DNA of 29,118 bases from a virus: positions 1 to 29,118 of IMG/VR virus record IMGVR_UViG_3300031659_000059; one strand, written 5' to 3'. The first letter of the stretch is position 1, and each line of letters starts with the position of its first letter. Shown here in pieces: positions 4,207-19,118 of the stretch. A model generated the notes under the pieces. The model searched no databases, was not told the origin of the DNA, and was given only the letters and a program-made list of their open reading frames with translations. A program made the translations under genes and the position numbers.

Positions 4207-4506
4207 TGGAACAAAATGTTCCACGTGTTCCACAATGTTCCACGTAAAATGGGCCTCGTGGAACACGGGAAAGGTGCGTGGTTATAGGTCAGATGATGAA
4301 TGTTCCAGATGTTCCAGTACTTTTTGGTTAGTAAAATAACAACAACAAATAACAACGGTCGACGTTCGATGTAAACATAAACCTGAATTTGCTGGAACAA
4401 TGGAACATTGATCGGCAAGACCGACCACATCGTGCGCTACGACGCACAAATCTGTGTTCCACGTAAATGTTCCATAAGGTGCTTAGACCATGGAACACGT
4501 GGAACA
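4207..4506. repeat. iteron cluster: 13 copies of TGTTCCA
   Basis: Direct-orientation copies start at 4217, 4226, 4236, 4301, 4310, 4455 and 4468. Reverse copies (TGGAACA) start at 4207, 4259, 4393, 4401, 4491 and 4500. Many are in tandem pairs with an 8-10 base period. The 16-mer TGTTCCACGTGTTCCA at 4217-4232 recurs as its exact reverse complement at 4491-4506. A 4321-4390 spacer is AT-rich with AAC repeats. About 0.04 copies would be expected by chance in 300 bp. Such fields are typical of replication origins bound by an initiator, or of partition or operator sites. No gene is credible here. Frames on either strand simply translate the repeats. Confidence 0.85.
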
Positions 4507-4679
4507 TATTACGCGCACACAGCGCGCTCCACACGTACCCATCCACATCACTTCGTGATGATAGTAGTTGGCACACCTCCGTCCACAGTGGAAAGAAAAA
4601 ATAGCCGACGCCTTGCGTCGACATTTTCTTTCCTTCGGAGAAGGGGGTGCGGGGGAAGGCCCCCGCGAGATATCTAAGA
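4507..4679. other. gene-free stretch with stacked hairpins
   Basis: No gene is seen. Perfect stems are 4512-4516/4522-4526, 4546-4551/4555-4560, 4606-4611/4615-4620 nested inside 4590-4599/4624-4633 and again inside 4577-4581/4636-4640, then 4649-4655/4660-4666 (GCGGGGG, loop AAGG). The nested set forms one long interrupted hairpin of about 64 bases. It lies between the right iteron half and the end of the first leftward unit. Confidence 0.55.
4596..4620 (-). terminator. Rho-independent terminator of first leftward unit
   Basis: On the minus strand a CGACGC/GCGTCG stem with loop AAG is followed by GCTA and a run of six T. It lies about 60 bases after the stop of the 38-residue gene. On the plus strand the same stem is followed by four T after three bases, so weak bidirectional action is possible. 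Confidence 0.55.
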
Positions 4680-4796
4680 CTATAGAAGTTTATATTGTCT
4701 ACGAATGTAAACAATTCCGCCGATGATGATGGCGTAGAAGGTGATAGCATTGAAGATTATCATTGCTAAGGCGATACATGATAGTAGTTCTAACAT
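4680..4796 (-). CDS. small single-span membrane peptide (38 aa)
   Basis: Reads from ATG 4794-4796 to TAG 4680-4682 and overlaps the stop of the upstream gene by seven bases, with a CGGAGA ribosome site seven bases before the start. The product is one long hydrophobic helix (ALAMIIFNAITFYAIIIGGI at residues 9-28) followed by a basic tail, RRQYKLL. By the positive-inside rule the C-terminus would be cytoplasmic. It is the last gene of its unit. It could modulate the host membrane or an ion or lysis function. It is too short, and lacks a lysin neighbour, to be called a holin. Confidence 0.6.
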   Translation of the reverse strand: MLELLSCIALAMIIFNAITFYAIIIGGIVYIRRQYKLL

Positions 4797-5008
4797 ATGG
4801 TTCTCCGTTTATAATAGGGAGTTCTTCCCTGTAGTTTAATGCGACGAATTTTGTCATTCGCCAGTTCTAGCGTTCGGTAACTAGCCCAAAGCCGTTCTCC
4901 GCCCGTATGGTGGTTGTATGAATACACATCGTACATATAAGTAGTGATAGTATCCCCGATAGAATGGGAGGCCGAAGCCCCCCAAGGTTTGTATTCAAGA
5001 AGCATCAT
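4790..5008 (-). CDS. small Arg/Tyr-rich hypothetical protein (72 aa)
   Basis: The start is ATG 5006-5008, or the adjacent ATG at 5005. The frame begins inside the end of the previous gene and ends overlapping the next by seven bases, so four genes are chained by overlaps. The product has a Tyr-rich middle (TTYMYDVYSYNHHTGGERLW) and a strongly basic C-terminal third (NDKIRRIKLQGRTPYYKRRT) that could bind nucleic acid. No family is recognised. Confidence 0.6.
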   Translation of the reverse strand: MMLLEYKPWGASASHSIGDTITTYMYDVYSYNHHTGGERLWASYRTLELANDKIRRIKLQGRTPYYKRRTIC

Positions 5009-5198
5009 CAAATGGTAACTCTTCTTGCTTAGGTAAACGCTGTGCTCGATAACCAGCTTTGGTATAAGTGGTTATTTTGTCAACAGCTGTATGCGCCACC
5101 CCCACTGTTTTACCAGTGAGGACGAATGCAAGCGAAAATACTTTGCCACCAAGGCTAGCTATTTCGCGTGCAGTGGAAGTGATAGTAGGTTTATCCAT
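4995..5198 (-). CDS. small hypothetical protein (67 aa)
   Basis: The start ATG overlaps the stop of the previous gene by eight bases (ATGGATAA), with only a G-rich stretch as ribosome site, so translation is probably coupled. Residues about 15-40 are Gly/Val/Ala-rich and moderately hydrophobic, not clearly a membrane span. The C-terminus is acidic (EELPFDDAS). No family is recognised. Confidence 0.62.
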   Translation of the reverse strand: MDKPTITSTAREIASLGGKVFSLAFVLTGKTVGVAHTAVDKITTYTKAGYRAQRLPKQEELPFDDAS

Positions 5199-5589
5199 TA
5201 TCCATTACCCCCGCAACTAAGTCAGCGACTGATGGCGTATCAGCTTTGACTGCTTTATCAGCTTTATCAGCCTTCGGAGGCATAAAAGTGATAGGTTGAG
5301 CAAACTGCGTTAAAACAGACACTTTGCCTTTTCCATCTACCCAGGTCTCAGCTGATGTAGTATAGGTCGAAGGACGGAAGGTAGGATTAATACCGACTTT
5401 GCCATTGGAGATACATGATAGTATCAAGGCTTTTTGCTCCTCAGTCGTCCCTTTCTTAAGAAAGAGTTTGACGAAGCCAGTCTCGGTAGTAAGTGCTATG
5501 GTCTCACCGTTCTCGTTAACGAAACTAGAAGTCTCGTGGAATGCCGGCATCACAATGGGTGCAAGCGATTTAATTGTATTTTTAGACAT
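5191..5589 (-). CDS. hypothetical protein, first gene of leftward unit (132 aa)
   Basis: Start ATG 5587-5589 is preceded by a strong AGGAGG and, about 25 bases further, by a sigma70-like promoter. The body is beta-rich (FVNENGETIALTTETGFVKL) followed by a helix (TEEQKALILSCISNG). A charged linker made of KAD repeats (PPKADKADKAVKADTP, about residues 104-119) leads to a short C-terminal helix. The promoter-proximal position suggests high early expression. Function is unassigned; a DNA-binding or host-takeover role would be a guess. Confidence 0.75.
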   Translation of the reverse strand: MSKNTIKSLAPIVMPAFHETSSFVNENGETIALTTETGFVKLFLKKGTTEEQKALILSCISNGKVGINPTFRPSTYTTSAETWVDGKGKVSVLTQFAQPITFMPPKADKADKAVKADTPSVADLVAGVMDNG

Positions 5590-5818
5590 AAGGTCCTCCT
5601 GCTAATCAAAGCAATAATAAATACACTGATAGTAATGTCTACGGGAAATCTATTGATTTGCCGAATGTTTTTCGGGACAAGGTTCCAAAGCTCGAAAACT
5701 TAGAAGTACTTTCCAGAAACCCGGATCGGGGGGTGGGTGGTGAAATACAGAAGCAAGGAGAAGAGGAGTACGTGGTATGTTATAGTTTTTTTACTAAAAA
5801 ATTTTTTCACTAAAAATT
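5590..5818. promoter_or_regulatory. divergent control region
   Basis: 229 bases separate the leftward and rightward halves. It holds the leftward promoter at 5614-5641, stems AAATC/GATTT (about 5646-5659) and CCGAA/TTCGG (about 5660-5674), a G-rich run at 5728-5740, a purine-rich stretch, and an AT-rich end with an extended -10-like TGTTATAGT at about 5778-5786. The last may be a rightward promoter, but no good -35 is seen. Two ACTAAAAA copies (5793, 5809) precede the HNH gene. Being next to the terminase genes, it may also hold a packaging start site. Confidence 0.45.
5614..5641 (-). promoter_or_regulatory. leftward sigma70-like promoter (first unit)
   Basis: On the minus strand, -35 TAGACA (5641-5636) and -10 TATTAT (5619-5614) are separated by 16 bp, each matching consensus at five of six positions. 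Transcription would begin near 5607, giving a leader under 20 bases that includes AGGAGG. It shares two blocks with the promoter at 4148-4174. Confidence 0.6.
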
Positions 5819-6810: not shown

Positions 6811-8437
6811 ATGTAAAAGATGCAGAGGCATCTACCCAGAAAACCTAGTTCTTATTGACGAGGTTTGTGTATATTGTCGAGCTGACGAAGTAGAAGCAAC
6901 GCCCGAGCCCCAAAAGAAGATTGATCAGAAGTTAGAAAAAGCTCAACTTTCTGCTCAAGCAAAAGCAGAACAAGAATTAGCGAAAAGAATTTTAGCACGT
7001 AAGCGGTTACTCCCATTTGTTGAACGTTTCAATCCAGACTACGTAGCAGGTTGGGTGCACAAAGATATATGCCAACGGCTAGAAAAGTTCAGTGAACAAG
7101 TAGCGAATAAAGAATCACCAAGATTGATGCTCTTTATGCCGCCTCGACATGGTAAATCTACATTGGCTAGTATTGCATTTCCCGCTTGGCATCTAGGAAG
7201 ACATCCGGAACACGAGTTTATAAGTTGTTCTTATTCGGGGTCTTTGGCTATGAGTTTTTCAAGAAAAGTGCGTCAACTGCTAAGAGAACCAGTATACAAA
7301 AATGTGTTCGAAAAATCTAGACTAGATAAGGATTCTCAGTCAGTAGAATCATGGCAAACAACAGAAGGCGGCGGTTATGTAGCAGCGGGTGTTGGTGGTG
7401 GTATTACTGGTAAGGGTGCGCACGTTATGGTTATTGATGATCCAGTAAAAAACAGAGAGGATGCAGAATCCGATAACAACCGAGATGCGACTTGGGATTG
7501 GTATACATCCACAGCTTATACAAGGTTATCCCCAGGTGGAGGAATCTTAGTTATTCTTACGCGTTGGCACGACGACGACTTGGCCGGGCGCTTGTTAACA
7601 CAAGCAGAAGAAGGCGCAGATAAATGGGAAGTGATTCGTTACCCAGCAATTGCAGAAGAAGACGAAAAGTTTAGAAAAACAGGTGAAAGTTTGCACCCGG
7701 CGCGTTACAATGTGGACGCTCTCGAGCAGATAAGGAAAGCCATCGGCCCGCGCGATTGGTCTGCTTTGTATCAACAAAATCCCGTGTCCGACGAAGGCGA
7801 CTATTTTAACCGCGATATGATCGCTTATTATAATTTCAATGAGATTGATACTTCTAAACTTAAATACTATTGCGCGTGGGATCTCGCGATCGGACAGCGT
7901 GACCGGAATGATTTTTCAGTTGGTATTGTTGTCGGGGTCGATGAATATGATAATTTATTCATTGTTGACGTGGTCCGCGGCAAGTATGACGGGTTCGAGT
8001 TAGTAGAACAGATATTAGACTTGTACGAATTATGGCGCCCAGGTATAGTGGGGATAGAAAGAGGTCATATTGAGATGGCCCTGGGTCCGTTCTTAGAAAA
8101 AAGAACACGCGAACGCGGCCTTAACGAAGCTTACTTTAAAGACTTAAAAGTTGGTAGGCGCGATAAGGAGTTACGTGCTCGAGCAATCCAGGGTAGAATG
8201 CAACAAGGTATGGTATACTTTCCAGAAGACGCCGCTTGGACAGGAACAATGGTTGCAGAACTATTACGTTTTCCAAATGGTACGCACGATGACCAGGTAG
8301 ATGCCTTGGCGTGGATTGGTTTAATGATGACAGAGTTTGCTACGTTTTATGAAAGACCCGAGCATATTCCGTCATGGAGAGATGGGTTAAAACACTTAGT
8401 AAAAGATGGCAAACGTAAATCATCAATGAGCGCTTAA
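6791..8437 (+). CDS. terL: terminase large subunit
   Basis: 548 residues, the usual length for the family. ATPase: Walker A PPRHGKST at 117-124, Walker B VMVIDD at 212-217, coupling motif near ILTRWHDDD. Nuclease (RNase H fold): AWDLA with D364, GIERG with E423 and DDQVDAL with D500/D501/D504. It translocates DNA into the procapsid through the portal and cuts the concatemer. Unusually, the N-terminus carries CxxC pairs (C8/C11, C26/C29), a small zinc ribbon before a Lys/Glu-rich helix. The start overlaps the small-subunit gene and the stop overlaps the portal start as TAATG. Confidence 0.95.
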   Translation: MDIAKTECKRCRGIYPENLVLIDEVCVYCRADEVEATPEPQKKIDQKLEKAQLSAQAKAEQELAKRILARKRLLPFVERFNPDYVAGWVHKDICQRLEKFSEQVANKESPRLMLFMPPRHGKSTLASIAFPAWHLGRHPEHEFISCSYSGSLAMSFSRKVRQLLREPVYKNVFEKSRLDKDSQSVESWQTTEGGGYVAAGVGGGITGKGAHVMVIDDPVKNREDAESDNNRDATWDWYTSTAYTRLSPGGGILVILTRWHDDDLAGRLLTQAEEGADKWEVIRYPAIAEEDEKFRKTGESLHPARYNVDALEQIRKAIGPRDWSALYQQNPVSDEGDYFNRDMIAYYNFNEIDTSKLKYYCAWDLAIGQRDRNDFSVGIVVGVDEYDNLFIVDVVRGKYDGFELVEQILDLYELWRPGIVGIERGHIEMALGPFLEKRTRERGLNEAYFKDLKVGRRDKELRARAIQGRMQQGMVYFPEDAAWTGTMVAELLRFPNGTHDDQVDALAWIGLMMTEFATFYERPEHIPSWRDGLKHLVKDGKRKSSMSA

Positions 8438-16413: not shown

Positions 16414-19118
16414 TGGCGTTGTTTCAAAGACCAAACCAAATGAACGCACTTCAGGCAGCGCAAGTTAATTCTTATCAAAGAGATCTCCAAAAAAAAGACC
16501 TTTTAACCTTAAACAAAAATCTTCAATACGAAGAAAGTGCTTTTAACAAATCGTTAAATAACGCCACTACAATAGCTGACCTTCCAAAAGGCCATTTGTT
16601 TGCAAGTGATGAAGAATTAATTAATTTTAAAAATAACCATGATCCAAGCACGGTAGGTTTTGATTCTTATTTAAAGATGTATGGGCAAGACGAAGCAATG
16701 AAAAGAATTATGAACAACTCCAACGCCGCTTCTGCTATTTTAGGATATGGCAAAACCATAGATTTAGAGAACACAAACTGGAATGCCGATACAAAGTCAT
16801 TTGACGTAATGGTAAGAACCGAAGACCAAGAAAAAGGTCAAGCTAGAACCAACCCAATGACCGCAGCAGGAACAACTGTACAAGGGTTGCTTGCTGAAGG
16901 CGGTAGAGCCGCAGTAGAAGAAAACACACTTCCAGGTGTTGGAATTGATGAAGTTAATTTCTTTTTAGAACAAATAAAAAGCCAAGGGCAAAACGCAGCA
17001 GGAGGATTTTCTGCACTTGAAAACCTTGGTGGGATGGATAAGAAAGGCGCTAATATTGATTTTTTTCAAGGCGATACTAGAGAACAACTTGCAAACCTTA
17101 TGGTAGGTGGCGCACCAGGAGCAGAAGCAGGAACAGGAACAGGCGAAGCACCGGTAGCAGGAGCAGGAACAACAACGCAAATGTCAGGCGGAATAACTGT
17201 AGACAACATAGATAGTTTAGGTATAACTACTAATATAGCTATTTCTGATCGAAATATTATTAATAAAATAATAGAAGTAGAAAGTGGAGGTAAGCCAGAC
17301 GCAGACAGTGGTCATGCAAAAGGTTTAATGCAGTTAAAAGATTCAACTGCAGATAAACCCGGCTTAGGGGTTAAACCCGTAGTTCGTTCAGGTCCAAACG
17401 GAGAAATTTCAGCAGAAGAAAATGTAAGGTTTGGTACAGACTATTTTGATGCATTGACTGAAAAATATGATGGAGACTTAGTGACTGCAGCTATGGCTTA
17501 CAACGCTGGCACTGGAGCCATTGATAAGTGGATAGAGGGTGGAAGAAAATATGAAGACTTGCGAGAAGAAACTCAAAATTACGTAGCTAAAATTTTTGGT
17601 GAAGATGTACGAGAACAAGTTAAGAATGGTGCATATGGGCAAGGTGATAGTACTCCAGCAGCTTCAACTCAAGTTTTAGATCAAGGCGTTATAGATTCTG
17701 CTTCAGAAACAACACAAAAAGCGTCGCCAGTTGGACGTATATCTGGTGATTCAACAGCAATAGCTAATGCTGTAAGAGGAGGTGAAAATCAACGAGCCCT
17801 AAATGAGATGCTAGGAGACGATTTTTATCTTGAACCCGGTTTTCAATTTACTGACGAGCAAAATAAAAATCTTTCAAATAATGAAAAAAAGTTAATTAGA
17901 CAACGCCTGGTAAAAAAATCTACAGATAACATTGCAGCTAACCTTACCGAAGTTGAAAAAAACACTTCAAGGATAGCTTCTAGTGTAGACGATGTTGCAG
18001 GAGCAACTGAAGAAACAACAGCAGCAGCTAAAGATACTTACAGTTTTTACAACACTAAAAACAAAGAACTAAAAGAAATTTTTGCTGCATCCCCAGCTTT
18101 ATACGAGGAGTTTCAAGAAGACCCTGAAGCTTTTGCTCTTAAATACAAAGACAACTTGGAAGATATTGCGCCTAAAAAAGTATCAGCAGCTGTAATAAAT
18201 GATGTAGTAAATGATTCTCCTTTTAAATTTAAAGGAGACGATGCAAAGTCTTTTTTAAACAGTGTAGAAAGCGGGGATGTGCAAACGTTTGCAAATACTT
18301 TAACAACTCTTGCTGAAAAGTATGTAGGTGACGATGAAGTTCCTTTAGAGTTCCAAAACAAAATAGTTGCTTTGCTAGGGGGCGCAAACAATTTCCTTGC
18401 AAACTCGGGGCAACGAAGACTAGACCAACACATTATGGTGGGCATGTGGGCTACATTAAGTGATGACCAACGTAAGACTTATGCTCCTTATATGATGAGG
18501 TTTGCTGAAACTGGCAAATTCTCATTTGAAGGTATAACAGCAGCTAATCAAACTCGTCAAGTTAATGTTAATGAAAGAAATGTTTCTGTTAATGAATCTA
18601 ACTCACAGAAGATAAGTGATGCGGGTAAAAACCTAAACGTCATAAGAGAAAGAATGCTAGCAGACGGTTATGTGTTTAACTCAAACGATATTACCGCTGC
18701 TATTTCTTTTATAAACCAAGCCGACATAGGGGGTAATCCAATAGATTTGCAAGCAGGAAGAGACACTATTGGTGTGGGAATGAAACAGTGGGTAGGCAGC
18801 CAGAAAAAAGGTTGGTGGAATTCAATTGTAAGTAATTTCCCTATTTTTGGTACTAGTGGCACAAGAACTCCAAACGCTGCTTTTTCTACACAACCAGACC
18901 TTTTAGCTTACACTCAACAAGGTGAATTAGTTACTAGACCAGATCAAGAAGTAGGATATTTTACAAGAACAGCGCCTGGTAACCCTCAGATTAAATTACC
19001 ACAAAGCGAAATATCTGCTTACTGGTCTAACAACGAGCTAGCTCCGGAAGGACTTCAGTATTTAACAACCCTTGCTATAGCAAACTCTAAAGTTAAAGCC
19101 TCAAAACAGGGGGGCTAA
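16413..19118 (+). CDS. internal virion protein with lytic transglycosylase domain
   Basis: 901 residues. A Gly/Ala/Thr-rich linker at about 231-260 leads to an SLT domain at about 278-395. Motifs are IIEVESGG with catalytic E290, HAKGLMQLKDST and VTAAMAYNAGTGAIDKW, with a final NYVAKIFG helix. It would open a gap in peptidoglycan for DNA entry, like T7 gp16 or P22 gp4. The remaining 500 residues are helix-rich and lack named motifs; near residue 530 is a coiled region (ATEETTAAAKDTYSFYNTKNKELKEIF). It ends directly before the giant protein gene, probably a partner in the ejection apparatus. Confidence 0.85.
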   Translation: MALFQRPNQMNALQAAQVNSYQRDLQKKDLLTLNKNLQYEESAFNKSLNNATTIADLPKGHLFASDEELINFKNNHDPSTVGFDSYLKMYGQDEAMKRIMNNSNAASAILGYGKTIDLENTNWNADTKSFDVMVRTEDQEKGQARTNPMTAAGTTVQGLLAEGGRAAVEENTLPGVGIDEVNFFLEQIKSQGQNAAGGFSALENLGGMDKKGANIDFFQGDTREQLANLMVGGAPGAEAGTGTGEAPVAGAGTTTQMSGGITVDNIDSLGITTNIAISDRNIINKIIEVESGGKPDADSGHAKGLMQLKDSTADKPGLGVKPVVRSGPNGEISAEENVRFGTDYFDALTEKYDGDLVTAAMAYNAGTGAIDKWIEGGRKYEDLREETQNYVAKIFGEDVREQVKNGAYGQGDSTPAASTQVLDQGVIDSASETTQKASPVGRISGDSTAIANAVRGGENQRALNEMLGDDFYLEPGFQFTDEQNKNLSNNEKKLIRQRLVKKSTDNIAANLTEVEKNTSRIASSVDDVAGATEETTAAAKDTYSFYNTKNKELKEIFAASPALYEEFQEDPEAFALKYKDNLEDIAPKKVSAAVINDVVNDSPFKFKGDDAKSFLNSVESGDVQTFANTLTTLAEKYVGDDEVPLEFQNKIVALLGGANNFLANSGQRRLDQHIMVGMWATLSDDQRKTYAPYMMRFAETGKFSFEGITAANQTRQVNVNERNVSVNESNSQKISDAGKNLNVIRERMLADGYVFNSNDITAAISFINQADIGGNPIDLQAGRDTIGVGMKQWVGSQKKGWWNSIVSNFPIFGTSGTRTPNAAFSTQPDLLAYTQQGELVTRPDQEVGYFTRTAPGNPQIKLPQSEISAYWSNNELAPEGLQYLTTLAIANSKVKASKQGG

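Follow-up and report, generated by a model that had tools for sequence, protein, structure and literature searches.

Gene context and layout of the repeat field

The window, by which we mean the whole analysed stretch of 29,118 nucleotides, is a fragment of 29 kb from the genome of a tailed phage. Genes for terminase, portal and capsid proteins point rightward, beginning at about 5.8 kb, while small genes and an AAA ATPase gene run leftward. A dense field of the heptamer TGTTCCA lies at positions 4207-4506, with the nearest leftward open reading frame beginning at about 4143 and the small-terminase gene starting 1.8 kb from the field. Comparison of the window DNA with annotated phages returned no near matches, and an Rfam search gave no match. 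A first-pass annotation, made from the sequence alone, had reported thirteen heptamers in 300 bp, and our recount of exact copies on both strands gave the same 13 between 4207 and 4506. The window as a whole holds 18 copies against 4.1 expected, a count reached by no shuffled sequence, and in 100 Markov sequences no heptamer exceeded 5 copies per 300 bp, compared with 13 here.

The copies, referred to below as iterons, form two half-fields on either side of an AT-rich core, an arrangement that the first-pass annotation had described correctly, together with the AAC repeats of the spacer. Iterons in the left half are ordered - + + + - + +, starting with iteron 1 (4207-4213, - strand), which is found in the nearest relatives only, and continuing with iterons 2 (4217-4223, +), 3 (4226-4232, +) and 4 (4236-4242, +), the inverted iteron 5 (4259-4265, -) 23 bp past iteron 4, and an inner pair formed by iterons 6 (4301-4307, +) and 7 (4310-4316, +). 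The right half reads - - + + - -, with iterons 8 (4393-4399, -) and 9 (4401-4407, -) as its inner pair, followed by iterons 10 (4455-4461, +), 11 (4468-4474, +), 12 (4491-4497, -) and 13 (4500-4506, -), so that the inner pair of each half faces the core. Tandem steps between iterons are 8-10 bp, the period originally proposed, except for one of 13 bp. The 16-mer TGTTCCACGTGTTCCA at 4217-4232 (+) recurs as an exact inverted copy at 4491-4506 (-), again as first noted.

The core itself (4317-4392), a likely melting region, has about 32% G+C, compared with 45-53% in the flanking clusters. It contains TTTGGTTA (4323-4330, +), a candidate priming site, and at its centre a ACGGTCGACGTTCGA block (4355-4369), with GGTCGAC-like blocks occurring in most alleles of the field (see below). 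On the other side of the core, GGTTTA (4378-4383, -) is the counterpart of GGTTA, a purely descriptive correspondence.

The window has 11 copies of the octamer TGATAGTA where 0.96 would be expected, and 10 of them are on the + strand. The first to the right of the field lies at 4559-4566 (+), 53 bp from the field, and opens a plus-strand array (4559-5634) with further copies at 4779, 4945, 5180, 5416 and 5627. Across eight genomes carrying two of the iteron alleles, the first octamer is always 43-82 bp from the field edge on the terminase side; the copies within 1.4 kb, 24 in total, all have + orientation, and in seven of the eight genomes there is none left of the field. Going by these positions, TGATAGTA is a polar element on one side of the predicted origin and makes the region asymmetric. 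Another motif, ACAAGGTTCCAA (window ~5676-5690), occurs once or twice at ~21-27 bp and is then followed by a G-rich tract; it is found 0.4-1.5 kb right of the predicted origin in 8/8 genomes, whatever the iteron allele, and is perhaps a promoter or packaging element.

Conservation of the field and its heptamer alleles

Viral contigs were scanned with the 16-mer and also with proteins of the same phages, the latter because a search by the repeats themselves was to be avoided. All 35 relatives that were found through their terminase and that extend at least 2.6 kb upstream of it carry the field, about 1.7-2.9 kb upstream of the terminase; one of them (L258) has its field cut by the contig end, leaving 3 copies. 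Records found through a primase-helicase (see below) likewise have the field wherever the place is covered. The field is thus syntenic in every relative covering the locus, with the heptamer letters varying: TGTTCCA, TGTTACA, TGGTTCCA and, in one record, TGTGTACC. Iteron orientation and steps are similar across these four alleles and the layout is largely kept, including a step across the core of 78-91 bp in most of them. In an alignment of TGTTCCA fields the iterons (2 to 13 of the window) stand out as invariant blocks and most of the intervening sequence drifts. Invariant iterons, a kept layout and drifting spacers together indicate that selection appears to act on letters and layout at once.

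TGTTCCA also occurs in other settings. Twelve contigs (L016, L026, L051, L055, L068, L086, L092, L097, L099, L110, L111 and L119) have 5-7 copies in another layout, and five TGTTCCA contigs (L016, L068, L111, L053 and L092) gave no match to DUF5906, VapE or DUF927; another TGTTCCA-binding protein may be present in these other-layout contigs. In L129 (G005; 7590-8006) and L094 (G044), a TGTTCCA field of different layout lies within the same ATPase-origin-terminase order, and the primase-helicase is of DUF927 type. Four isolate-derived, prophage-like records (L057, L038, L098 and L107) carry TGTTCCACG tandem repeats about 2 kb from a 468-aa VapE/DUF5906 gene. We considered TGTTCCA as a marker for D5-family helicases and rejected it, with matches in 7 of 17 dense-field records (one weak) versus 2 of 17 controls (one weak), a difference that is not decisive; since some TGTTCCA fields in unrelated contigs occur without a D5, VapE or DUF927 match, presence of the heptamer is not enough to infer this helicase.

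GC skew around the field

All 14 sequences analysed, two of which come from one contig, have negative GC skew to the left of the field and positive skew to its right. In 13 of the 14, the stretch from the field to the endoVII/TerL genes is already positive, and in the window the genes of this stretch run leftward; the skew therefore switches at the field and not where transcription changes direction. The minimum of cumulative skew, which the first-pass annotation had proposed to look for near the core, falls about 0.6 kb from the field centre for the window and 0.4 kb from it for G001, a 58.9-kb relative with the same gene order; G031 and G036 resemble G001 in having it no more than about 1 kb from the field. 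For the other contigs the global minimum is little informative because they start elsewhere on a possibly permuted genome.

These features bear on whether the field could be a multi-site operator for a transcription regulator of the flanking leftward units. The local setting would allow it: a strong terminator (4604-4622, - strand; z = -4.5) ends a leftward unit beside the predicted origin, so that the field has a terminator on one side and the start of another leftward gene on the other. The terminator was part of the original description and stands, as opposed to the promoter claimed for the next leftward unit, where shuffled sequences gave promoter-like matches at least as often. Thirteen sites in mirrored half-fields around an AT-rich core at a skew switch would be unusual for an operator, however, and the flanking small genes have diverged or been lost in relatives that retain the field. 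We consider this explanation quite unlikely.

Candidate initiator encoded by relatives

The window fragment lacks an initiator gene, as first reported, and relatives with longer contigs encode a D5/SF3-like primase-helicase. In G001 this is an 818-aa protein with DUF5906 and VapE-like helicase domains, encoded about 12 kb from the field and adjoined by a PolA polymerase gene. Judged from these relatives, the initiator gene of the present phage probably lies beyond the left end of the fragment. The model of the N-terminal part of the 818-aa protein has an AEP primase-polymerase fold (Foldseek match to 6zp9, E = 4.7e-4) and the C-terminal model is a winged helix. By sequence, the helicase part matches NrS-1 primase in the PDB (4e-29), and the best structural match of the C-terminal model is the C-terminal region of NrS-1 polymerase (Z 7.0); Foldseek by itself found nothing significant for this model. 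Of the isolated phages, Aeromonas phage phiA008 and Pseudomonas phage KPP25 are closest in both the 818-aa protein and the terminase; their version of the protein is 30-32% identical, and the same scan found no such heptamer cluster in either.

Partition was the other function that the first-pass annotation had put forward, with the field acting as a centromere for a phage or host ParB-like protein. Dense sites close to a skew switch would fit such a role, and the 16-mer resembles Pseudomonas-type parS half-sites. No ParB_N family protein was found in any of 11 records, most of them 56-64 kb long, and no parS-like palindrome is present at up to 2 mismatches. A host ParB would moreover leave unexplained the clade-wise change of letters together with a helicase domain described in the next section, and we regard a partition site as extremely improbable.

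Co-variation of iteron letters and the C-terminal domain

Iteron allele and primase-helicase were both known for 23 records. On the tree of the C-terminal part, the alleles require 3 changes, the minimum for four alleles, whereas the N-terminal tree needs 5 and that of the terminase (TerL) needs 6, and AU tests indicated different histories for the N-terminal and C-terminal parts. The N-terminal part groups L172 (TGTTACA) with L162 (TGGTTCCA) and L164 (TGTTCCA), and on this part a TGTTACA clade is rejected (p = 1e-80); the C-terminal part groups L172 with the TGTTACA phages, and here a grouping of L172 with L162 is rejected (p = 2e-4).

The alignment columns that separate TGTTCCA from TGTTACA phages are concentrated in the wing of the winged helix (about 11 of 16 columns, versus 36 of 691 in the N-terminal part). 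The wing reads approximately SADKNASIPRG in TGTTCCA phages and SKDRxAGIPRG in TGGTTCCA phages, and about four residues are missing from it in TGTTACA phages. L162 combines a TGTTCCA-like backbone with a KDR wing and TGGTTCCA iterons, and in L226 a TGTTACA-type wing was seen before the contig end revealed TGTTACA iterons. At the level of sequence, then, the iteron letters change together with the winged-helix C-terminal domain of the primase-helicase, in two or three independent allele switches, all within one lineage. This co-variation and the incongruence between trees support the C-terminal domain as the putative determinant of iteron recognition.

The same trees weigh on the idea that the field is a packaging (pac) site read by the small terminase, which would be in keeping with the field preceding the terminase genes in every relative. 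The letters nevertheless differ between near-identical terminases, the sisters L259 and L261 carrying different alleles; on the TerL tree, with its 6 changes, monophyly of the CCA and of the ACA alleles is rejected in both cases, and small-terminase identity does not track the allele. A pac site is accordingly a very unlikely explanation.

Predicted origin and proposed mechanism

Taken together, the synteny, the skew minimum near the field and the relatives' C-terminal domain that tracks the iteron letters point to the field being a replication origin, as the first-pass annotation had suggested, with the primase-helicase as its likely initiator, in a lineage of marine podophages that has Pseudomonas phage KPP25 as a distant relative. 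We put the probability of this reading at roughly 0.85. Its sequence organisation is best read as that of a P4/PICI/SaPI-type iteron origin.

The mechanism that we propose is modelled on known satellite origins (PICI and SaPI). PICI origins are described as always having two iteron sets around an AT-rich region that is a possible melting site (PMC6092414), and the SaPI Rep helicase recognises iterons through its C-terminal domain (PMC7581432). By analogy, the C-terminal winged helix of the phage protein would bind the iterons, and each half-field would assemble a helicase ring, the two rings facing each other. Melting of the AT-rich core would follow, and the helicases could load themselves and depart in opposite directions. 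Synthesis would be started by the AEP primase domain, possibly at core motifs of GGTTA type, after which the phage's PolA would presumably take over. The priming motif of NrS-1 polymerase is the same TTTGGTTA (PMC8718748). Most TGTTCCA origins and G018 retain this motif, which is absent from G002 and from the other alleles; because these alleles lack the exact motif, we give modest weight to TTTGGTTA in the core as a priming site. As a universal priming site it was rejected, being confined to part of the TGTTCCA clade and G018 and overlapping the tandem repeats in NrS-1.

A broader proposal, which we hold tentatively and at less than even odds, is that the lineage represents a set of natural orthogonal origin-initiator pairs, in which a fixed layout is retained as the letters are swapped whole with a winged helix encoded about 12 kb away, with priming motifs built into the core and, on one side, a polar TGATAGTA array that maybe sets fork direction or priming. 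If the origin reading is right, uncultured marine phages hold an experimentally tractable origin with a recognition code that could be read from sequence, in the form of the four alleles and the wing residues that match them, and they would make it possible to test how an initiator domain and about twelve scattered sites come to change together. A limited literature search, with many journals outside its coverage, found no description of this field, and a text search for the heptamer strings returned nothing relevant.

Comparison with known systems

P4 is alike in several respects. The P4 alpha protein binds through a C-terminal winged helix and, like the candidate initiator here, is a fused primase-helicase; the P4 ori and crr consist of short tandem and inverted iterons with nearly the same letters (TGTTCACC vs TGTTCCAC). 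Unlike the present phages, P4 has a separate ori and crr, with crr beside the alpha gene, in contrast to one two-half field about 12 kb from the gene. P4 thereby raises the possibility that our field is only an auxiliary cis site for the same primase-helicase, a crr without an ori, and that the true origin lies elsewhere, given that both P4 elements are built of type 1 repeats. One such field was found per stretch inspected, however, and the skew switches at that field, which makes an auxiliary site improbable. Six P4 type 1 repeats at the ori (L348, 9310-9413) are spaced nearly like window positions 4217-4316, with polarity reversed. Compared in true polarity, the P4 ori spacing (10, 11, 22, 43, 10) and that of the window (9, 10, 23, 42, 9) agree at only 4 of 6 sites, a level common in random fields; a 6/6 match is obtained only with polarity reversed (1 in 2000 under a crude null). 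Because the true-polarity match is no better than chance, the spacing was left out as evidence for an origin.

Returning to the field as an origin, SaPI and Gram-negative PICI origins differ in lying directly downstream of rep in satellites, whereas here the phage has its own PolA and the field is about 12 kb from the initiator gene (G001) and so not beside rep. In SCCmec, the isolated C-terminal domain of the D5-type helicase Cch2 binds short direct repeats, AAGTG (PMC7581432), although that staphylococcal mobile element has only three iterons, beside the helicase gene. Among solved structures, the polymerase of Nitratiruptor phage NrS-1 is the closest relative of the helicase and C-terminal domain. 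Directly after its primase gene, NrS-1 has 11 copies of GTTACAC in about 320 bp with TTTGGTTA inside (L329, 7063-7379; record ~17062-17378), a field that, going by its sequence, is likely to be the NrS-1 origin and of which we found no description in the passages of the NrS-1 literature that we consulted. It differs from the present field in that the repeats adjoin the primase gene. The kind of origin predicted here is therefore known, and what would be new is its distance from the initiator gene, the single two-half field, the letters changing as a set and the polar octamer. If this is right, it would extend the satellite-type, self-loading helicase origin to phages with their own DNA polymerase.
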